DNA from: Cupriavidus sp. EM10 | GTDB taxonomy: Bacteria; Pseudomonadota; Gammaproteobacteria; Burkholderiales; Burkholderiaceae | Length of the DNA: 64,000 bases | Assembly: GCF_018729255.1 (NCBI RefSeq) | Contig: NZ_CP076060.1 | Location: 1,426,001-1,490,000, forward strand | Direction: 5' to 3' | Shown: positions 7,301 to 15,938 of the stretch, one piece after another | How the letters are laid out: each line of letters begins with the position of its first letter | Numbering within the stretch: position 1 is the first letter of the stretch | Translations under genes and position numbers: made by a program | Notes under the pieces: generated by a model | Seen by the model: only the letters and a program-made list of their open reading frames with translations | What the model was told of the DNA's origin: nothing | The model's database searches: none

Positions 7301-7328
7301 TTGCCATCCGGCCGGAAACGACCATAAT
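7301..7328 (+). promoter_or_regulatory. Candidate sigma-70 promoter of the hydroxyquinol operon
   Basis: TTGCCA (7301-7306), 16-base spacer, CATAAT (7323-7328); each hexamer matches consensus at five of six positions. The predicted transcription start falls inside the palindrome at 7328-7341, so the arrangement fits repressor blocking. Confidence 0.5.
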
Positions 7329-7341
7329 GCAAACGTTTGCA
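7328..7341. promoter_or_regulatory. LacI-type operator O1 (TGCAAACGTTTGCA)
   Basis: Perfect 14-bp palindrome with a central CG, the hallmark of LacI/GalR-family operators. It lies at the predicted transcription start, just ahead of the AAGGAG ribosome-binding site (7346-7351) and ATG (7357) of the dioxygenase. The 12-bp core recurs at 11403-11414 before the porin gene, and a LacI-family regulator is encoded in the same cluster. Confidence 0.7.
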
Positions 7342-7356: not shown

Positions 7357-8295
7357 ATGGATACACAACACCGGGTCCCGGTGGACGAGCCTCTCGCCAC
7401 GCTGGCCCTGATCCAGGATGAGGCCTCGGTGACCGAGGTTGTCCTGCAGGCGATGGCGAAGACCGAAGACGCCCGCCTGCGCGCCGTGATGGCTGCGCTG
7501 GTCTCGCATCTGCACGCGTTCCTGCGCGAGGTCCGGCCTACCGACGAAGAGTTCGAGCGGGCGCTGGCGTTTATCGCCGCGCTCGGACACGCGACCCACG
7601 CCACCAACAACGAGGTGGTACTGGCCGCCGATGTGCTGGGCCTGTCGACGCTGGTTACGACGATCAACAACAGCACGCAGGGCGGTCGCACGCCCGGTGC
7701 GCTGCTGGGGCCGTTCTATCGCGCCAACGCACCGCGCTACCAGTGTGGCGATTGCGTGGTGCAGGACGACGCGCCCGGCATGCCGCTGTTCGTCAGCGGC
7801 ACGGTACGGGCGACCGACGGCTCCGTGCTGCCCGGTGCGATGGTCGAAGTCTGGCAGGCATCGCCGGTAGGCCTGTACGACAACCAGGACCCCCGCCAGC
7901 CCGATCGCAACCTGCGGGGGATGTTCCACACCGACGCGGACGGCCACTATCACTTCCGCACGGTGCGTCCCGCCGGCTATCCGGTGCCGACCGATGGCCC
8001 GGTTGGCGCGCTGCTGGCAGCCCAGCAACGGCACCCGTTCCGGCCCGCGCATATCCATTTCATCGTCGCGGCGCCGGGCTACCGCACGCTCGTCACGCAG
8101 GTATTCGCCGACGATTCCGACATCCTGGAAACCGACGTCACGTTCGGCGTGCATCGGCAACTGGTGGGCGCCTTCCGGCTCGTGGAAATGGGATGGAGCC
8201 CGTGGGGCGAGATGCCGGCGCCGTACTACACGCTGCAATTCGATTTCACGCTCGAACCGGGCGAGCAGACGTTTCCGACGCCTCCCATCGACTGA
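7357..8295 (+). CDS. Intradiol ring-cleavage dioxygenase, hydroxyquinol 1,2-dioxygenase type
   Basis: Cleaves hydroxyquinol (1,2,4-trihydroxybenzene) between the ortho hydroxyls with O2 to give maleylacetate; cytoplasmic Fe(III) enzyme. The 312-residue protein has the helical N-terminal dimerisation domain (about 1-110) and the catalytic beta-sandwich, with iron ligands Tyr174 (VGLYDNQ), Tyr208 (AGYPVP), His232 and His234 (RPAHIH). The stretch PTDGPVGALL followed by HPFRPAHIHF is closer to hydroxyquinol than to catechol dioxygenases, and the maleylacetate reductase in the cluster agrees. The start at 7357 has an AAGGAG site 5 bases upstream. A catechol or chlorocatechol activity cannot be excluded. 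Confidence 0.88.
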   Translation: MDTQHRVPVDEPLATLALIQDEASVTEVVLQAMAKTEDARLRAVMAALVSHLHAFLREVRPTDEEFERALAFIAALGHATHATNNEVVLAADVLGLSTLVTTINNSTQGGRTPGALLGPFYRANAPRYQCGDCVVQDDAPGMPLFVSGTVRATDGSVLPGAMVEVWQASPVGLYDNQDPRQPDRNLRGMFHTDADGHYHFRTVRPAGYPVPTDGPVGALLAAQQRHPFRPAHIHFIVAAPGYRTLVTQVFADDSDILETDVTFGVHRQLVGAFRLVEMGWSPWGEMPAPYYTLQFDFTLEPGEQTFPTPPID

Positions 8296-8331
8296 CCATC
8301 CCGGCAACCCACGCATTCACTGTCCCACACC

Positions 8332-9081
8332 ATGACTATTACCCATCTCTCCGGCAAGGTTGCCGTCATCATCGGCGGCACCGGCGGTATCGGCCTGGCC
8401 GCCGGCCGGGCCCTGGCCAACCTGGGCGCCAGCGTCGTGCTGACCGGGCGCGATGCCGGGCGCACCGCGAAAGCGGTCGAAAGCCTGCCCGCGGGCAACC
8501 ATATGGCCGCCCATGCAGAAGTGTCCGATAGCACATCGCTGCGGGCCCTGGCCGCCGATGTGCAACACCACTACGGCCGCGTGGACATCCTCGTCAACAC
8601 GTCGGGCTTCACGCGCGCCATTCCGCACGGCGATCTCGAGGCCCTGGACGATGCGCTGATCGACGAGCTGTTCGCCGTCAACTGGCGCGGCCAGTTTGCG
8701 GCGATCCGTGCCTTCGCGCCGGTATTGCGGGCCGGCGGCGAAGGGCTGGTCGTCAATGTCGGCTCGATTGCCGGGCGAACGGGGCAGGGCAGCAACGTGG
8801 CGTACTGCGCCGCCAAGGCCGGTCTCGACGTGATGGCGATGTCGCTGGGCCGTGCGCTGGCCCCCGAAATCCGTGTCCTGAACGTATCGCCCGGGGTAGT
8901 CGACACGGCGTTCGTGCCGGGCCGCGACAGCACGTTCAACGAACGGGCCGCCAAGACCACGCCGCTGCGCCGCATCGGCCAGGCCGAGGACGTGGCGGAT
9001 GCCATCGTCGCCTGCGCCACGTCGCTGCGGTTTGCCACCGGCACCACCATCGTGGTCGATGGCGGACGGCAGCTCGGCTGA
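8332..9081 (+). CDS. Short-chain dehydrogenase/reductase (SDR)
   Basis: Classical cytoplasmic SDR of 249 residues. Visible are the cofactor motif GGTGGIG at 15-21, Asn117, and the catalytic Ser145, Tyr158 and Lys162 (YCAAK). It lies 36 bases after the dioxygenase gene and so is probably in the same transcript. Its substrate is not evident; it may reduce or oxidise an intermediate leading to the trihydroxylated ring. Arg40 after the second strand hints at NADP preference, which is weak evidence. Confidence 0.85.
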   Translation: MTITHLSGKVAVIIGGTGGIGLAAGRALANLGASVVLTGRDAGRTAKAVESLPAGNHMAAHAEVSDSTSLRALAADVQHHYGRVDILVNTSGFTRAIPHGDLEALDDALIDELFAVNWRGQFAAIRAFAPVLRAGGEGLVVNVGSIAGRTGQGSNVAYCAAKAGLDVMAMSLGRALAPEIRVLNVSPGVVDTAFVPGRDSTFNERAAKTTPLRRIGQAEDVADAIVACATSLRFATGTTIVVDGGRQLG

Positions 9082-9125
9082 TCCCTCGGCTGATCCTTCT
9101 CCACACGCAGACTTATCTGACCTCC

Positions 9126-10010
9126 ATGCACGCCAGAAAGACCATAATCACCTGCGCGGTGACCGGCAATATCGTCACGCCAGCCCAGCACCCCGCGCTG
9201 CCTGTCACGCCGGCGCAGATTGCCGACGCCGCGCTGGAAGCCGCCGAAGCCGGCGCCGCCGCCGCGCACATTCACGTACGCGATCCGGAAACGGGGCGCC
9301 CGTCGATGGAACTCGACTACTACGCCGATGTGATCGACCGGATTCGGGCCCGCAACCGCAGCCTGATCATCAATCTGACGACGGGGCCGGGTGGCCGCTT
9401 CGTGCCCGACGAGAACGAGCCGCGCGTGGCCGCGCCGGGCACCACGCTGCTGCATCCGTTGAAGCGTGTGGCGCACATCGCCGCCTTGCGCCCCGACGTC
9501 TGTTCGCTGGATCTCAACACCATGAACTCGGGCGGCGATGTGGTCATCAACACGCCTGCCAACGTGCGCAAGATGGCCGAAGTCATCCGCAGCGCCGGCG
9601 TCATGCCGGAACTGGAAATCTTCGATTCCGGAGACCTGAACATGGCGCTCGACTTCATGCGCGACGGCGTGCTGGACGGCCCCGGCCTCTGGACCTTCGT
9701 GCTGGGCGTGAAGTACGGCTTTGCGGCCACGCCGGAGACCATCTTCTACGCCCGCAACATGCTGCCGCCCGGGGCCCATTGGTCGGCGTTCGGCATTGGC
9801 CGGGCCGAGTTCCCGATCGTCGCGCAGGCGTGGCTGGCGGGTGGTCACGTGCGGGTTGGCCTGGAAGACAACATCTACCTGGAAAAGGGCGTGCTGGCGC
9901 CTGGCAATGCGGCGCTGGTGGCCAAGGCGCGGGACATCGTCAAATCCTTGGGCGGCGAGATTGCAACGGCGACCGATGCGCGCGCGCAGCTTGGTCTGCG
10001 CCAGGCCTGA
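9126..10010 (+). CDS. Beta-keto acid cleavage enzyme (BKACE, DUF849)
   Basis: BKACE enzymes are TIM-barrel Zn proteins that react a beta-keto acid with acetyl-CoA to give acetoacetate plus the CoA ester of the remaining chain; the founding member is the 3-keto-5-aminohexanoate cleavage enzyme of lysine fermentation. This 294-residue protein has the Zn motif HIHVRDP (His48, His50) and the later GLEDN (Glu247), and matches the family in length. Its place between ring cleavage and maleylacetate reductase genes suggests 3-oxoadipate as substrate, giving succinyl-CoA and acetoacetate; that specificity is inference. It begins 44 bases after the SDR gene. Confidence 0.88.
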   Translation: MHARKTIITCAVTGNIVTPAQHPALPVTPAQIADAALEAAEAGAAAAHIHVRDPETGRPSMELDYYADVIDRIRARNRSLIINLTTGPGGRFVPDENEPRVAAPGTTLLHPLKRVAHIAALRPDVCSLDLNTMNSGGDVVINTPANVRKMAEVIRSAGVMPELEIFDSGDLNMALDFMRDGVLDGPGLWTFVLGVKYGFAATPETIFYARNMLPPGAHWSAFGIGRAEFPIVAQAWLAGGHVRVGLEDNIYLEKGVLAPGNAALVAKARDIVKSLGGEIATATDARAQLGLRQA

Positions 10011-10061
10011 CGCGTTTTCGAAATTTTCCGAATTCCACGGTTTCTTTTTATTCCATTCATC

Positions 10062-11039
10062 ATGAACACGATTCAGGTTCGCCAGAAAGCCCCGACCATC
10101 GACGCGCTGGAGCTGTCGCTGATCGGCATGCCACGCCCGGAGGCCGGCGCCGGCCAGTGCATCGTCGAAGTGGCCAGCGCGGGGGTGAACCCCAGCGATG
10201 TCAAAGCCACGCTTGGCCTGATGCCGCACGCCATCTGGCCCCGTACTCCGGGCCGCGACTATGCGGGGGTGGTCATTGACGGCCCCAGCCAGTGGGTCGG
10301 CCAGCAGGTGTGGGGCAGCGGCGGCGAACTGGGCATCCGCCGGGACGGTACGCATGCCAGATACCTGCGCATCGGCGTGGAAGCTGTTCGCGCGAAGCCG
10401 CAGGCGGTGTCGCTGATCGAGGCCGGCGCGGTGGGCGTGCCGTTCATCACGGCGTACGAAGGCCTGCGGCGCGCCGGCATGCCCAAGGAGGGCGATGTGG
10501 TGCTGGTGGGCGGCGGCAACGGCAAGGTGGGACAGGCCACCATCCAGATCGCCACCGCGCTGGGCGCGCGCGTATTCGCCGTGGAGCGCGGCGCAGAGCC
10601 GTATCGGGGCCACGCCAGTGGTGCGGTGCGCATGATCGACGCCAGCCGCGAGACAATTTCTAAGGTGGTCCGCGACGAAACGGGCGGCCATGGCGCCGAC
10701 ATCGTCTACAACACCGTGGGCAGTCCGTATTTCGAGCAGGCCAACCTGGCGATGGCCATCGGCGCCACGCAGATCTTTATCTCGACTATCGAGAAGCCGG
10801 TGCCGTTTGACATCTTCGCGTTCTACCGGGGCCAGCATACCTACGTGGGCGTCGATACGCTGGCGATGCACAGCCAGGCCTGCGCCACGATCCTCGATGC
10901 GCTGGCGCCGATGTTCGCCGCCGGCAAGCTCAAGCCGTTTCCGGTGCTGCCGGACTACACCTACGCGCTGGCCGACGCCAAGGACGCCTATCGCGCCGTG
11001 CTGCAAGGCGCCACCGAGCGCGTGGTGCTGACGCCATGA
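10062..11039 (+). CDS. MDR-superfamily quinone oxidoreductase / zinc-independent alcohol dehydrogenase-like protein
   Basis: 325 residues with a GroES-like N-terminal domain (about 1-120) and a Rossmann domain with cofactor motif GGGNGKVG at 150-157. The Cys ligands of the structural zinc are absent, as in quinone reductases and enoyl reductases. In this cluster it could reduce hydroxybenzoquinone, the autoxidation product of hydroxyquinol, back to hydroxyquinol; this is inference from context. Its stop overlaps the start of the cupin gene (ATGA). Confidence 0.8.
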   Translation: MNTIQVRQKAPTIDALELSLIGMPRPEAGAGQCIVEVASAGVNPSDVKATLGLMPHAIWPRTPGRDYAGVVIDGPSQWVGQQVWGSGGELGIRRDGTHARYLRIGVEAVRAKPQAVSLIEAGAVGVPFITAYEGLRRAGMPKEGDVVLVGGGNGKVGQATIQIATALGARVFAVERGAEPYRGHASGAVRMIDASRETISKVVRDETGGHGADIVYNTVGSPYFEQANLAMAIGATQIFISTIEKPVPFDIFAFYRGQHTYVGVDTLAMHSQACATILDALAPMFAAGKLKPFPVLPDYTYALADAKDAYRAVLQGATERVVLTP

Positions 11040-11386
11040 ACACGACCCGATTTGCCCAGGCGCCGGCCTACCATCCGGCCCATCACGAAGGCATGCACTG
11101 CCTGCGCCTGCAGGGTCACGAGGCCGGGCCCTCCGAGGCCCTGTGGATGGGTGTGTCGGTGATCCTGCCGGGCGGCCATACGTCGCTGGACGCGTCGCCG
11201 GTCGAAAAGCACTACGTCGTGCTGGAGGGCGAGGTCTGCATCCGGACGCCGTCCGAGAGCGTCACGCTGGGGCGGTTCGACTCCGTGAGGCTGGCGCCGG
11301 GAGAAGCCCGGCAGGTCACCAATCCATCGAACCTGCCGGCCATGCTGCTGCTGGCAATGCCATACCCGCCGCGCGCAGCCACCTGA
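11036..11386 (+). CDS. Small cupin-domain protein
   Basis: Single-domain cupin of 116 residues: ILPGGHTSLDASPVEKHYVV carries the first motif (His residues and Glu) and the loop FDSVRLAPGEARQVTN the second. It overlaps the preceding gene by 4 bases and is likely co-translated. It may be an isomerase, a ring-substrate binding protein or a small dioxygenase; the substrate is unknown. Confidence 0.78.
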   Translation: MNTTRFAQAPAYHPAHHEGMHCLRLQGHEAGPSEALWMGVSVILPGGHTSLDASPVEKHYVVLEGEVCIRTPSESVTLGRFDSVRLAPGEARQVTNPSNLPAMLLLAMPYPPRAAT

Positions 11387-11400
11387 TTTTTGTAGTCGAT

Positions 11401-11416
11401 TTGCAAACGTTTGCAA
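11401..11416. promoter_or_regulatory. LacI-type operator O2 (TTGCAAACGTTTGCAA)
   Basis: Perfect 16-bp palindrome in the 62-base gap between the cupin and porin genes, sharing the 12-bp core GCAAACGTTTGC with the site at 7328-7341. Probably a second binding site of the cluster's LacI-type regulator, controlling porin and receptor expression or allowing looping between sites about 4.1 kb apart. Confidence 0.7.
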
Positions 11417-11448
11417 CGCATCCATAACAACGAGGAGGAGACCCCAAG

Positions 11449-12569
11449 ATGCGAAAGACTTTGAGGCGGCACCGCATGGCCCCGCTGGCGCTGGCGTCGG
11501 CCGGCATCACCAGCGGCATGGCCGCCCCCGCAATGGCCGAAGACGGCGTGACGATTTTGGACGGCTCAACACGGCCATCGAGTATTCGCGCGCCAGCACG
11601 GCCACCGATGGCACGAGGCTGGGCGGCAGGGCCCGGCTGACCAATAACCGGTCGGTGTTCGGTTTTCGGGGGGAGGAGGGGCTTGGCGGCTCGCTGAAGG
11701 CCGTCTGGCAGATCGAAAGCAATGTGTCGCTGGATACCGGCCAGGGGCAGATCGCCGGGCGCAATTCGCGCATTGGCCTGCAGGGCGACTACGGGCTGGT
11801 GTTCATGGGCCACTGGCAGACGCCCTATACGGAGTCGACCGCCAGCTATGACCCGTACTATCCGACCACGGCCGGCTACATGGCCTTGATCGGCAACGGG
11901 TCGACGTCGAGTTCCGACAACGTCCAGGACACCAGTTCCTTCGACCGGCGCCAGAAGAACATCCTGCAATACCGCTCGCCGCAGATCTGGGGCGCCAGCC
12001 TGTGGCTGGGCTGGGGGCTGCCGGAAGAGAAGAACACGGTGCCACGGAATCCGGCGCTGTATTCGGCGGCATTGGTCTACGACCGCGGGCCGCTCAGCGC
12101 GACGTTTGCCTACGAAATCCACCAGCACTACCAGGCCGCCGGGCGCAACGACAACGCGCTGAAGGTGGCGCTGGCGTACCAGTTGCTGCCCGGTACCCGG
12201 CTGGCGGCGGTCTACGAACACCTGCACTACCGGACGGACACGGGGGACTTGCAGCGCAACGGCTACTACGCGTCGCTGGTCCAGAAGCTGGGCCCGGGCA
12301 GCGTGCGCGTGGGCTTTGCCTTCGCCCCCAACGGCACCGGATCGTCCACGGACACCATCGGATTCTTCCGAAGCGGCCCGGAAACGGGCGCCACGCAGTT
12401 CACGGTGGGCTACGACTACCCGTTGTCGAAGCGCACGGCGCTCTACGCGTACTACAGCCGCATCAACAACAAGAAAAACGCGATCTACGACTTTGCCATC
12501 AACGAGCTGGGCGTCAGTGCCGGTGCCGATCCGCAGACCTTTGCGCTTGGCATGCGGCATTTCTTCTGA
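11449..12569 (+). CDS. Outer-membrane porin, Bordetella/Neisseria general porin type (apparent 1-base frameshift)
   Basis: Trimeric beta-barrel porin letting the cluster's substrate across the outer membrane. The N-terminal part from ATG 11449, behind an AGGAGGAG site, ends early; one T is missing in the run 11555-11558. With it restored the frame reads VTIFGRLNTAIEYSRAST and continues into FGFRGEEGLGG, giving about 373 residues ending in aromatic MRHFF, the usual outer-membrane C-terminal signal. The signal peptide cleaves after about residue 30 (APAMA). Position downstream of operator O2 suggests substrate-induced expression. Confidence 0.82.
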
Positions 12570-12619
12570 CGTTCTGACCTTCTGACGCCGGGCCCGAACC
12601 TTGTTGCGAGGAGACCATC

Positions 12620-13648
12620 ATGATTCGACAGTTTTTCCGCCCCGTTGCCTGCCGTGCCAAGGCAATGCGCCGCATAGCCGTTCGTCCAATTGCCGCGCTG
12701 ACGCTGGCCATGGCTGCCGCCGCGCCGATGCAGGCGGGCGCGCAGCCCCAGTATCCGGCCAAGCCGATCCGGCTGGTCGTGCCATTTTCCGCAGGCAGCG
12801 CCACGGACATCCTGGCGCGCATCATCGGCGCCAAGATGGGCGAATCCGGCCAGTGGCAGGTGGTGGTCGACAACCGGCCGGGCGCCGGCGGCACGCTGGG
12901 TGCCGCCACCGTGGCCAAGTCGGCGCCTGACGGCTACACCCTGATCCTGGTCTCGGTGGCGCATGCCATCAACGCCACGCTCTATCCGAAGCTGGGCTAC
13001 GACACGCTGAAGGACTTCGCCCCGGTATCGCTGGTGGCGTCGGTGCCGAACGTGCTGGTGGTCAATGCGGCCAGTCCGTACAAGTCGGTGCGCGACATCT
13101 TGGCGGCGGCCAAGGCCAAGCCGGGCGCACTGAACTTCGACTCCGCCGGTTCTGGCAGCTCCACCCACCTGAGCGGGGAGATGTTCAAGATGCAGGCCAG
13201 GATCGATATCGTGCATATCCCGTACAAGGGCACCGGCGAGGGGCTGACCGATGTGATGGCCGGGCGCGGCGACATGATGTTCGCGCCCAGCGTGTCGGCC
13301 ATGCCGTTCGTCAGGCAGGGCAAGCTTCGCGCGCTGGCCGTGACCACGCCCCGGCGGGCCGGCGCGCTGCCCGATGTTCCCACCGTGGCGGAATCGGGGC
13401 TGCCCGACTATGCGTTCGATTCGTGGTTCGGCGTGCTGGCGCCGGCTTCGACGCCCAGGGAGATCGTCAACGCGCTGAACGCCGAGATCGGCAAGGCCCT
13501 GGCCGCGCCCGACGTGCGCGAGCGCCTGGCCGCACAAGGAGCCGAACCCCGGCCCAGCACCCCGCAGGAATTCGCAGGTTATATCCAGGCCGAGATCGCC
13601 CGGTTGGCCCCGGTGGTCAAGCAGTCGGGCGTGCGCGGAGGAGAGTGA
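12620..13648 (+). CDS. Bug/TctC-family periplasmic solute receptor
   Basis: Tripartite tricarboxylate transporter receptor of 342 residues with an N-terminal signal segment ending near residue 42 (MQAGAQ), then the family opening YPAKPIRLVVPFSAGSATDI and the conserved NRPGAGGTLGAATVAKS. Such proteins bind carboxylates or aromatics in the periplasm. No TctA/TctB membrane genes are adjacent, as is common for the many orphan Bug proteins of Burkholderiaceae; it may act with a distant permease or as a sensor. It starts 50 bases after the porin gene. Confidence 0.88.
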   Translation: MIRQFFRPVACRAKAMRRIAVRPIAALTLAMAAAAPMQAGAQPQYPAKPIRLVVPFSAGSATDILARIIGAKMGESGQWQVVVDNRPGAGGTLGAATVAKSAPDGYTLILVSVAHAINATLYPKLGYDTLKDFAPVSLVASVPNVLVVNAASPYKSVRDILAAAKAKPGALNFDSAGSGSSTHLSGEMFKMQARIDIVHIPYKGTGEGLTDVMAGRGDMMFAPSVSAMPFVRQGKLRALAVTTPRRAGALPDVPTVAESGLPDYAFDSWFGVLAPASTPREIVNALNAEIGKALAAPDVRERLAAQGAEPRPSTPQEFAGYIQAEIARLAPVVKQSGVRGGE

Positions 13649-13649
13649 T

Positions 13650-13692
13650 GGGGAGTGACGGGGGAGTGACGGGGGAGTGACGGGGGAGTGCC
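13650..13692 (+). repeat. Tandem 11-bp repeat (GGGGGAGTGAC)n
   Basis: About four consecutive copies (the first lacks one G, the last ends CC) immediately after the receptor gene stop and before the LacI-type gene. GGGAGTGAC-like fragments continue degenerately to about 13720. It is a slippage-prone G-rich microsatellite; copy number may vary or be miscounted. Confidence 0.75.
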
Positions 13693-13789
13693 GAGCGGGA
13701 GTGACAAGGGGGAGTGGCAGGGGGTGCGGCAGGGGCTGGCGGCTGAGGCTAGAATGGCGCATCTCAATGATCCAGCCTGGCATCGCCGC

Positions 13790-14824
13790 ATGTCCGAGCG
13801 CAAACGCGTGACCATCAAAGACCTTGCTGCCGAGGTCGACGTGCATTACTCCACGGTGTCGCGCGTGATGAATCCGGCGACGCGCCACCTGGTGGCCGAA
13901 GAGGTGGCCACGCGCATCCTCAAGCTGGCCGAAGCGCGCGGCTTCCGGCCCAACCGCATCGCGGCGGGCCTGCGTACGCAGCGCTCGGGGCTGGTCGGCG
14001 TGATCCTGCCCGATATCGCCAACCCGGTGTTCCCACCCATCCTGGCGGGCATCGAGTCGGTGCTGGCCCGCATGGGCTATGTGCCCATCGTCGTGAATGC
14101 CGGAGCCGAGCGCGCCCGGCAGCGCTTTGTGGTCGACCAGATGCTGGCCCGGCAGGTGGAAGGGCTGATCCTGGCCACGGCCGAGCGCGATGATCCGTTG
14201 CTGGAATACTGCGTCAAGGTGGGCATCCCCGTGGTGATGGTCAATCGTGGCGAGCCCACGGGCCGGGCCTCGTGCGTGGTCAGTGACAGTGCGCTGGCCA
14301 TGGGGCTGACGGTCGATCATCTGGTGTCGCTCGGCCATCGCTGCATCGGACACATTGCCGGCCCGGCCAGCACTTCCACCGGCGAGTCGCGCCGCGAAGG
14401 CTTCCTGCACGCGGTCAAGCGCCACAAGCTGCGGCGCGGCGAATTCGCCGTGGTCGAGGCCGAAAGCTATGCCCGCGACGCGGGACGCAAGGCCTGCGCG
14501 CAGCTGTTCGAGGCGCTGCCAGGCCTGACCGCCATCGCCGCCGGCAACGACCTCGTGGCCATGGGCTGCTATGACTATCTGCGCGAGCACGGTATTCGGT
14601 GCCCCGATGATGTGTCCGTCGTCGGCCACAACGACATGCCATTCGTCGACGCCCTGACGCCGCCGCTGACCACCATCCGCATTCCCGTCCACGACATGGG
14701 CGAGCAGGCCGCCGAACTGCTGCTGCGCCGGATCGACAAGCCGCAGACGGCCAGCGTCGTCATCGAACTGCGTCCGGAACTGGTGGTACGCGGGTCCACG
14801 TCGGCGCCGCCAGCGTCCGCCTAG
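13790..14824 (+). CDS. LacI/GalR-family transcriptional regulator
   Basis: Repressor of about 344 residues. The N-terminal helix-turn-helix reads VTIKDLAAEVDVHYSTVSRV and the hinge helix lies near residues 45-60. A periplasmic-binding-protein-like core follows (RSGLVGVILPDIANPVFPPI onward to VVGHNDMPF). I prefer the ATG at 13790 (MSERKR) because family members begin just before the HTH; an in-frame ATG at 13754 would add 12 residues. It lies among the hydroxyquinol genes and is the obvious candidate to bind the palindromes at 7328 and 11401. The effector is probably the substrate or a ring-cleavage intermediate. Confidence 0.9.
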   Translation: MSERKRVTIKDLAAEVDVHYSTVSRVMNPATRHLVAEEVATRILKLAEARGFRPNRIAAGLRTQRSGLVGVILPDIANPVFPPILAGIESVLARMGYVPIVVNAGAERARQRFVVDQMLARQVEGLILATAERDDPLLEYCVKVGIPVVMVNRGEPTGRASCVVSDSALAMGLTVDHLVSLGHRCIGHIAGPASTSTGESRREGFLHAVKRHKLRRGEFAVVEAESYARDAGRKACAQLFEALPGLTAIAAGNDLVAMGCYDYLREHGIRCPDDVSVVGHNDMPFVDALTPPLTTIRIPVHDMGEQAAELLLRRIDKPQTASVVIELRPELVVRGSTSAPPASA

Positions 14825-14852
14825 CGCTGCCGCGCACACATCCGTCGAAGAT

Positions 14853-15938
14853 TCATGCGCGGGGCGGTCTACCTTCGAACGCATCCTGCAGCAGTTGCAG
14901 AATGCCTTCCCGTTCCAGGGGGCGCGGATTCGGGTACTGGTCGCGCAGCGCCAGCGCGGCAATGTGTTCGATATCGCCCGCCGACATGCCGAGTTCACGC
15001 AGTGACGTCGGCGCGCCAAGTCGGGCCGTCAGGTCGAACACCCCGCGCGGGCCCTGTGCCGCGCCTAGCGCCTGGGCGATGGCATCCATGGCCTCCGGTG
15101 TGGCCGGCGCGTTGTACGCCAGCGCATGGGGCAAGACCACGGTGTGGACTTCCGCATGGGGCAGGTTCAGCGTGCCGCCCAGCGTATGGCAGAGCTTGTG
15201 ATGCAGCCCTACGGTCACGCTGCCCAGCACGGCCCCGCACAGCCACGCGCCGTACAGGGCGTCGCTGCGGGCTTCCCGAAGTGCATCGCGCAGTGCATCG
15301 GTGCCCGGCGCGGACCCGGCGATCACCGGCAGCGCCCGGGCCAGCGCGGCAATCCCTTCGCGTGCCATCCACTGGCTGACCGGGTTGCGATCGGCCGCGT
15401 ACAGGCCTTCTGCCGCGTGGGCGATGGCATTGATGCCGCTGGTCACGCTGATGGCGGGCGGCAGGCCAAGCGAGAGATCGGGATCGTAGATGACGGTGCG
15501 CGGCAGCACGCGCGGATCGCGTCCGGTGCGCTTGAGTCCGGCGTCTGTCAGCCCGTAGATCGGCGTCATTTCCGATCCCGAGTAGGTAGTCGGCACGGCA
15601 ATCACCGGCAGGCTCGATTCCAGCGCAATGGCCTTGCCCAGGCCAATGGTCGACCCGCCGCCAATCGCCAGCGAACAGTCGGCGCCGCATTGGGCGGCCA
15701 TTTCACGGGCACGCCGCGCCTGTTCGATGGGCACGTGCATCACGGCGCCGTCGAAAATACCCGCGCAGCGTGCGCCCAGCGCCTCGGCCACGCTTTCGGC
15801 CAGCTTTCGCTGCCCCGGGGTACACAGCACCAGCACCCGGCTGGCGCCCAGCGCATCGACTTCGCCGGCCAGCCTGGCAAGGCTGCCCGATCCGAAGACG
15901 ATGCGCTGAGGAGAGGATTGGTAGGCAAATGGATGCAT
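14853..15938 (-). CDS. Maleylacetate reductase
   Basis: NAD(P)H-dependent reduction of maleylacetate to 3-oxoadipate, in the iron-containing alcohol dehydrogenase superfamily. 361 residues from ATG at 15938: MHPFAYQSSPQRIVFGSGSL is a typical maleylacetate reductase start, with the nucleotide-binding GGGS at 93-96 and the His-rich HHKLCH (246-251) and HAEVH (261-265) segments where other family members bind metal. It is convergent with the LacI-type gene, leaving 28 bases between stops, and completes the hydroxyquinol branch begun by the dioxygenase. Confidence 0.9.
   Translation of the reverse strand: MHPFAYQSSPQRIVFGSGSLARLAGEVDALGASRVLVLCTPGQRKLAESVAEALGARCAGIFDGAVMHVPIEQARRAREMAAQCGADCSLAIGGGSTIGLGKAIALESSLPVIAVPTTYSGSEMTPIYGLTDAGLKRTGRDPRVLPRTVIYDPDLSLGLPPAISVTSGINAIAHAAEGLYAADRNPVSQWMAREGIAALARALPVIAGSAPGTDALRDALREARSDALYGAWLCGAVLGSVTVGLHHKLCHTLGGTLNLPHAEVHTVVLPHALAYNAPATPEAMDAIAQALGAAQGPRGVFDLTARLGAPTSLRELGMSAGDIEHIAALALRDQYPNPRPLEREGILQLLQDAFEGRPPRA

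Follow-up and report, generated by a model that had tools for sequence, protein, structure and literature searches.

A conserved operon in Cupriavidus sp. EM10, predicted to be LacI-controlled, pairs a hydroxyquinol-type dioxygenase with a BKACE enzyme that may end the pathway without PcaIJ and PcaF

The stretch of DNA analysed here (the window) comprises 64,000 nucleotides of Cupriavidus sp. EM10 (RefSeq assembly GCF_018729255.1, contig NZ_CP076060.1, positions 1,426,001 to 1,490,000) and contains a gene cluster in which a hydroxyquinol-type intradiol ring-cleaving dioxygenase (7357-8295, + strand) is followed by a short-chain dehydrogenase/reductase (SDR), a beta-keto acid cleavage enzyme of the DUF849 family (BKACE; 9126-10010, +), a medium-chain dehydrogenase/reductase (MDR) and a small cupin. 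The cluster is real and conserved, and an operator of its own probably controls it. As to its function, we tentatively favour, at somewhat short of an even chance, a LacI-repressed regulon in which the dioxygenase opens hydroxyquinol or a close relative and the BKACE completes the pathway through 3-oxoadipate or an analogue. The BKACE is favoured for this last step because the predicted regulon encodes no other enzyme that could split a beta-keto acid to form a CoA ester. In the proposed sequence of events, two units, dioxygenase-SDR-BKACE-MDR-cupin and porin-Bug receptor-LacI, would be repressed until an inducer, some precursor or product of the pathway, frees LacI from the operators preceding both. 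The dioxygenase would then open the ring of a trihydroxylated compound, of which hydroxyquinol or something close to it is the likeliest, and yield a maleylacetate-type keto acid. The carbon-carbon double bond of this acid would be reduced to give 3-oxoadipate or a close analogue, either by a maleylacetate reductase (MAR) whose gene is not part of the regulon, by the MDR of the operon, or by both. With acetyl-CoA, the BKACE would convert this beta-keto acid to succinyl-CoA (or an analogous acyl-CoA) and acetoacetate, and since that cleavage is direct, neither the 3-oxoadipate CoA-transferase PcaIJ nor the thiolase PcaF would be needed.

The same set of genes recurs across relatives. A scan of genome contigs yielded 352 confirmed BKACE relatives, of which the best 80 were kept with up to 10 kb of sequence on each side, the thresholds for calling a gene present being set after a first pass. 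The SDR was found at all 80 loci, the dioxygenase at 78, the MDR and the cupin at 76 each, LacI at 67 and MAR at 6, and PcaI, PcaJ and PcaF at none; at the 73 loci with full context the corresponding counts were SDR 73, dioxygenase 72, MDR 69, cupin 70, LacI 65, MAR 6 and again no PcaI, PcaJ or PcaF. With dioxygenase, SDR, MDR and cupin present at 76-80 of the 80 loci, the arrangement is not due to chance. The preliminary description of this DNA had suggested looking for DUF849 together with both the dioxygenase and MAR, and at these loci the association held for the former (78/80) but not for the latter (6/80). The best 24 BKACE loci come from Cupriavidus and, in one case, Ralstonia, and the genera represented among the 80 include Cupriavidus, Burkholderia, Paraburkholderia, Pandoraea, Trinickia and Variovorax. 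Within Cupriavidus, a dioxygenase lies no more than 2.5 kb from 38 of the 42 BKACE matches. Alphaproteobacterial plasmids of Bosea, Shinella and Rhizobium carry the same core, cupin included, with two intervening genes at one locus, and a Skermanella plasmid carries it with the cupin in a neighbouring divergent unit (the unannotated genes of loci L115 and L116 were located by tblastn). Chosen plasmid matches of Neorhizobium, Roseomonas and C. necator NH9 hold a related BKACE with no dioxygenase adjoining, and in Agrobacterium a related BKACE neighbours an SDR, a divergent operon there holding MAR and a dioxygenase of more distant kinship. At one locus (L047) the SDR still stands beside the BKACE, but no dioxygenase, MDR or cupin was found.

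Control of the cluster is predicted from a perfect 14-bp palindrome of LacI-family operator type, TGCAAACGTTTGCA, which occurs at 7328-7341, immediately behind two promoter-like hexamers, and again at 11402-11415, upstream of the porin-Bug-LacI genes. Allowing up to one mismatch, TGCAAACGTTTGCA has exactly two sites in the 6.66 Mb genome (sequence 97.5% complete), both of them in the cluster; allowing up to two mismatches, it has three matches in the window against 0.13 expected. The predicted regulon therefore consists of the two units of the cluster, leaving MAR and pcaIJF outside. The operator precedes the dioxygenase in 20 of 20 aligned relatives, and the exact TGCAAACGTTTGCA was found in 33 of the 80 relatives, twice in Skermanella. 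The promoter-like hexamers (TTGCCA and CATAAT with a 16-nt spacer, 7301-7328, +) score 10/12 in a consensus scan, and as two such pairs fall in the region against 1.0 expected by chance, they are weak evidence when taken alone; a CTTG block and the bases flanking the operator recur upstream in most of the 20 aligned relatives. The presumed repressor at both operators is the LacI-family regulator at 13688-14824 (+; PF00356 and PF13377), which would bind both TGCAAACGTTTGCA sites. Its listed start is GTG, and the real start may be internal. No TGCAAACGTTTGCA match with three or fewer mismatches occurs in the approximately 850 bases upstream of MAR. A pcaIJ/pcaF set elsewhere in the genome answering to the same operator, which the preliminary description regarded as evidence against a BKACE ending, is not apparent from the sequence, as the genome-wide search at up to one mismatch placed no operator near pcaIJF.

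The assignment of the dioxygenase (ATG start at 7357) rests on Pfam PF00775/PF04444 (Dioxygenase_N/C) and on its best solved relative, hydroxyquinol 1,2-dioxygenase 1tmx (E 2.9e-63); the query used in several searches began at 7360 and was thus one residue short. The Tyr, Tyr, His, His motifs, which we take to be the iron ligands, are conserved in the alignment. At the positions presumed to line the 1tmx pocket (Leu80, Asp83, Val107 and Phe108), the enzyme keeps Leu80 and Asp83 and replaces Val107 and Phe108 with Leu and Leu. The pocket Asp is Gly in four aligned relatives of 45-47% identity (L117, L118, L119 and L120; plasmids of Methylobacterium nodulans, Agrobacterium and Bosea vestrisii), whose genes lie beside HpaH/HpaI-type hydratase and aldolase genes. 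Aminomethyltransferase-family and tetrahydrofolate genes are also nearby at L118 and L119, and tetrahydrofolate genes at L120; the gene content of these four clusters suggests that a methoxylated phenol is degraded through intradiol cleavage.

The BKACE matches PF05853 over positions 1-274 of 274 (E 4.8e-100; 334.9 bits against a gathering score of 24.8), and the zinc-site residues His48, His50 and Glu247, in the numbering of BsfD, are conserved. Its proposed role is to cleave a beta-keto dicarboxylate with acetyl-CoA. The reaction of 3-oxoadipate with acetyl-CoA is already known, since a curated model for 3-oxoadipate:acetyl-CoA acetyltransferase exists in NCBIfam (NF053568, cut-off 350 bits). 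Arg91 of BsfD, placed near the substrate phosphonate in the part of that report at hand (PMC12871164), is conserved both in the clade of the window BKACE and in the curated 3-oxoadipate type and is absent from the 2y7d and 3c6c alignments, which hints at an acidic or anionic far end of the substrate. The same source, in the portion available, states that all BKACE sequences carry Tyr where BsfD carries Phe166 (PMC12871164). The window BKACE and its orthologs have Phe at this position, as do 9 of 9 aligned curated 3-oxoadipate rows (8 distinct genes, L125 being the same as L127), so a universal Tyr looks too narrow as a criterion for BKACE, and Phe166 was dropped as a marker of BsfD chemistry because the curated family carries it too. 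No NF053568-type BKACE was matched in the EM10 genome at E 1e-80. The two remaining full-length BKACE genes in the genome (C1:380.5k and C2:1668.3k) were set aside as 3-oxoadipate enzymes, their 91.3 and 88.4 bits falling far under the cut-off. A further BKACE-like gene (G000:C2:1828336-1828832) consists of two adjoining pieces in different frames, with the first third of the family unmatched.

The MAR-type iron-containing alcohol dehydrogenase (14853-15938, - strand) is convergent to the cluster and outside the operator-controlled unit. Among solved structures it matches 3jzd (1.6e-133), named only as an iron-containing alcohol dehydrogenase, and 3hl0 (5.3e-111) and 3w5s (1.2e-109), both named maleylacetate reductase; the genome has no second close copy, the next match being 32% identical. 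The preliminary description had the dioxygenase and MAR bracketing the cluster, and although MAR does stand at this end, the bracketing is local to the EM10 lineage, because MAR is convergent, lacks an operator and occurs at only 6 of the 80 loci. Its association with the BKACE appears instead at the level of the genome. In a survey of 60 Cupriavidus genomes, with BKACE called at 85% identity or more (39 genomes) and MAR counted at E 1e-70 or better, 36 of the 39 genomes with the BKACE had some MAR, compared with 11 of the 21 that lack it (Fisher p 0.0007, uncorrected for kinship or genome size). An ortholog of the window MAR (70% identity or more; one is a fragment) was found in 23 of 39 against 1 of 21, and outside Cupriavidus some MAR is present in 32 of 35 genomes with the operon. 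This genome-level presence fits a route from hydroxyquinol through maleylacetate to 3-oxoadipate. The neighbourhood counts led us to reject MAR as a constant member of the operon, though it is still a likely partner encoded elsewhere, and the MDR was not accepted as a proven substitute, since 68 of the 74 genomes (36/39 plus 32/35) have a MAR at some place. We read MAR as acting from another site in the genome, and the MDR as an enzyme that could stand in for it. In the neighbourhoods of MAR orthologs (eight stretches), a Bug receptor gene adjoins MAR in six (L129 and L132-L136) and lies one gene away in L130 and L131; a LysR-type neighbour is present in L130 and L132.

Several findings count against a hydroxyquinol route ending in cleavage of 3-oxoadipate by this BKACE. 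The enzyme scores 177.5 bits on NF053568 against the cut-off of 350, a tree with long branches and several weakly supported forks places it on a branch separate from the five family members included, and its nearest solved relative is BsfD (PDB 9zsc, E 3.6e-108), whose chemistry is different. The preliminary proposal that the BKACE is a 3-oxoadipate shortcut is partly supported. Of the 39 Cupriavidus genomes with the window-type BKACE, 20 have a separate curated 3-oxoadipate BKACE besides, compared with 1 of the 21 others, which can mean either a shared lifestyle or that the window BKACE does something else, and other endings are usually at hand, as pcaF is found in 35 of the 39 (20 of 21 without). 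MAR lies outside both the predicted regulon and the conserved neighbourhood. Its genome-level association ignores kinship and genome size, and in large genomes further dioxygenase clusters come with a MAR of their own. Of the 38 window-type dioxygenases, only 5 have a MAR within 12 kb, compared with 48 of 73 others in the same genomes and 0 of 4 of an intermediate kind. Three genomes with a BKACE 94-96% identical (G010, G022 and G051) carry the operon but gave no MAR match at E 1e-70. Genomes with a single dioxygenase have exactly one MAR in 8 of 11 cases with BKACE and 4 of 7 without, and because this control looks alike they were dropped as evidence for pairing with MAR. Finally, the most constant partner, the SDR (80/80), was given no role in the scheme of the preliminary description.

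A rival reading is that the same operon acts on another beta-keto acid, in which case the ring would be substituted or more oxidised, the SDR would act on the fission product or form the beta-keto acid, and the acyl-CoA released would not be succinyl-CoA. We consider this a plausible, if doubtful, alternative. It would give a purpose to the SDR, which is kept beside the BKACE even in L047, and an SDR-then-BKACE pair is supported by mutants in deoxyribonate catabolism, according to the portion of that account consulted (PMC6365646). It is also consistent with the position of the BKACE outside the 3-oxoadipate family, with the additional curated enzyme in 20 of the 39 genomes that carry the window-type BKACE, and with the three relatives that have the operon without MAR. 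Some clusters further encode a protein resembling gamma-carbonic anhydrase, PaaY and CaiE, though it scores under the cut-off of each of the three models. It could be a thioesterase, an activity superfluous for succinyl-CoA, but the gene was called at just 12 of 80 loci. The co-occurrence of MAR at the genome level and the retention in the dioxygenase of the 1tmx pocket Asp, replaced by Gly in the four HpaH/HpaI-associated relatives, argue for hydroxyquinol instead.

The similarity to BsfD raises the question of whether the acetyl group of acetyl-CoA could be transferred onto the beta-keto acid with subsequent decarboxylation to a 1,3-diketone, with no cleavage. BsfD shares Phe166 and Arg91 with the window BKACE, and a presumed BsfD at L139, whose gene neighbours are pepM and lumazine synthase, clusters with four rhizobial proteins of the clade (88/98 support, on a long branch). 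The setting nonetheless looks catabolic, not biosynthetic, and Phe166 is equally a feature of the curated 3-oxoadipate family, making such chemistry very improbable here. It is also unlikely that the 3-oxoadipate of the cluster passes to PcaIJ and PcaF while the BKACE serves another substrate. The genome does hold a complete pcaI-pcaJ-pcaF set on contig C2 (1481.7-1484.5k), with PcaF at 709.9 and 685.5 bits against cut-offs of 605 and 597 and the PcaI/J family models likewise exceeding theirs, so that the classical ending is available to the organism. This set, however, has no operator, pcaIJF is absent from all 80 loci, pcaF does not track the BKACE across Cupriavidus genomes, and the linkage of dioxygenase to BKACE is near absolute.

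The combination of a hydroxyquinol-type dioxygenase, MAR and a curated 3-oxoadipate BKACE in one cluster does exist in Cupriavidus, elsewhere than in this window. Matches to NF053568 over its cut-off occur in 21 of 60 Cupriavidus genomes (30 matches). One such cluster (L127, G050:C178:9000-28500) contains a LysR regulator, dioxygenase, TIM barrel, ribose-type ABC transporter, MAR, porin and an NF053568 match of 496 bits. A second (L128, G019:C170:1-19000) contains a porin, an NF053568 match of 488.5 bits, a TIM barrel with a weak likeness to 3-dehydroshikimate dehydratase, a ribose-type ABC transporter, dioxygenase, MAR, YciI, SDR and an inositol 2-dehydrogenase (curated model, 388.7 bits against a cut-off of 355). 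A third (L129, G033:C3:910000-929500) is a benzoate-type cluster of Rieske oxygenase, reductase, SDR, MFS transporter and a curated-type BKACE, with a dioxygenase 36% like that of the window and with MAR and a Bug receptor nearby; it may be compared with R. eutropha H16 as presented in the portion of that account at hand (PMC6449761).

The ring hydroxylase, whose absence the preliminary description took to indicate a substrate already trihydroxylated or a quinone, could be missing for another reason, namely that the aromatic ring is made from a cyclitol-like alicyclic compound by a dehydrogenase and dehydrations, yielding a tri- or tetrahydroxybenzene for the dioxygenase and then the BKACE. 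This idea, which we think unlikely, derives from relatives alone, through the ribose-type ABC and LacI genes by the operon in Paraburkholderia and its kin and through the gene set of L128; L127 and L128 could be clusters for cyclitol breakdown via an aromatic intermediate. Acid dehydration of myo-inosose to 1,2,3,4-tetrahydroxybenzene is described, as chemistry outside cells, in the portion of PMC11467972 consulted, and no biological precedent for a cyclitol-to-aromatic route was among the literature matches listed. If true, it would be a new kind of route, taking sugar-like compounds via aromatics.

All genes named in the preliminary description were recovered at their positions, with their kinds confirmed by profile and structure matches, as was the absence of PcaI, PcaJ and PcaF from the cluster. 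In the first unit the genes are separated by gaps of 36, 44 and 51 nt, followed by a 4-nt overlap of MDR and cupin. The SDR (8332-9081, +; PF13561/PF00106) had no match among solved structures at E 1e-30. The enone/quinone-reductase-like MDR (10062-11039, +; PF00107/PF08240) scores 106.8 bits on the TIGR02824 quinone oxidoreductase subfamily, under its cut-off of 296.8, and its top structural match is 3gaz (3.2e-34), with quinone oxidoreductase 4dup ranking third (1.1e-17); it is a candidate in-operon reductase of the ring-fission product. The cupin (11036-11386, +; PF07883, 28.2 bits against a cut-off of 27.2) has a single weak match among solved structures (E 0.004) and scores 110 bits, below the cut-off of 175, on NCBIfam NF050094, named beta-D-galactosidase. 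In the second unit, the frame of the Gram-negative porin (11450-12569, +) is broken in EM10, its start region was inspected, and PF13609 is matched on the open part, 11655-12569. Porin genes within the clusters of relatives are called at fuller length (20 loci, median 392 aa), and the interruption could be a true lesion or a sequencing error. The Bug/TctC periplasmic solute receptor (12620-13648, +; PF03401, E 2.6e-77) completes the unit with LacI. The type of transporter varies by genus: TRAP, branched-chain-type ABC or MFS transporters are present in the Alphaproteobacteria examined, and in L043, L074, L077, L078 and L080 (Paraburkholderia, Burkholderia and Trinickia) the operon is followed by LacI and ribose-type ABC transporter genes in place of the Bug receptor (proteins scanned for L078).

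If the preferred hydroxyquinol reading is true, the BKACE would be a general alternative ending of aromatic-ring catabolism, serving the hydroxyquinol branch besides those of catechol and protocatechuate, acetoacetate would be made with no transferase dependent on succinyl-CoA, and a cluster without pcaIJF need not be an incomplete pathway. The conserved LacI-controlled five-gene unit, with one repressor, two operators and one inducer, would also be a ready object for testing. The shortcut, put forward in the preliminary description as a departure from the classical route, is plausible here, but the idea is not new in beta-ketoadipate catabolism. In the portions of the accounts consulted, a BKACE in place of PcaIJ/F has been proposed for catechol in the CatM/BenM regulon of R. 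eutropha H16 (PMC6449761), and a BKACE ending for protocatechuate in Methylobacterium, whose pca cluster lacks pcaIJ and pcaF (PMC8963497, PMC12379598). No paper joining a BKACE ending to hydroxyquinol was among the literature matches listed from the open-access literature. Like the EM10 cluster, the R. eutropha H16 and Methylobacterium systems have, alongside an intradiol pathway, a DUF849/COG3246 gene for which cleavage of beta-ketoadipate is proposed; EM10 differs in its ring-cleavage enzyme, its LacI regulator and a BKACE outside the curated family, and its SDR/MDR/cupin core is not mentioned in those parts of the accounts.

Compared with deoxyribonate catabolism, the EM10 cluster shares an SDR gene adjoining a BKACE in a catabolic operon, whereas no ring-cleaving dioxygenase, MDR or cupin is mentioned there in the portion at hand (PMC6365646). 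BsfD of flavophos biosynthesis is the nearest solved BKACE-family protein and has Arg91 and Phe166 in common with the EM10 enzyme, but differs in its phosphonate substrate, its biosynthetic cluster and its reaction, an acetyl transfer with subsequent decarboxylation, as given in the part of the report consulted (PMC12871164). With the classical hydroxyquinol pathway, which leads from hydroxyquinol 1,2-dioxygenase and MAR on to PcaIJ and PcaF, EM10 shares a homologous dioxygenase and a MAR in the genome, next door in the EM10 lineage. Judged by sequence only, two traits of the classical hydroxyquinol cluster, MAR within the conserved cluster and co-regulation of PcaIJ/PcaF, were not found. The EM10 cluster differs from that pathway in having neither a hydroxylase nor PcaIJ/F, in leaving MAR outside its predicted regulon and in adding a BKACE.

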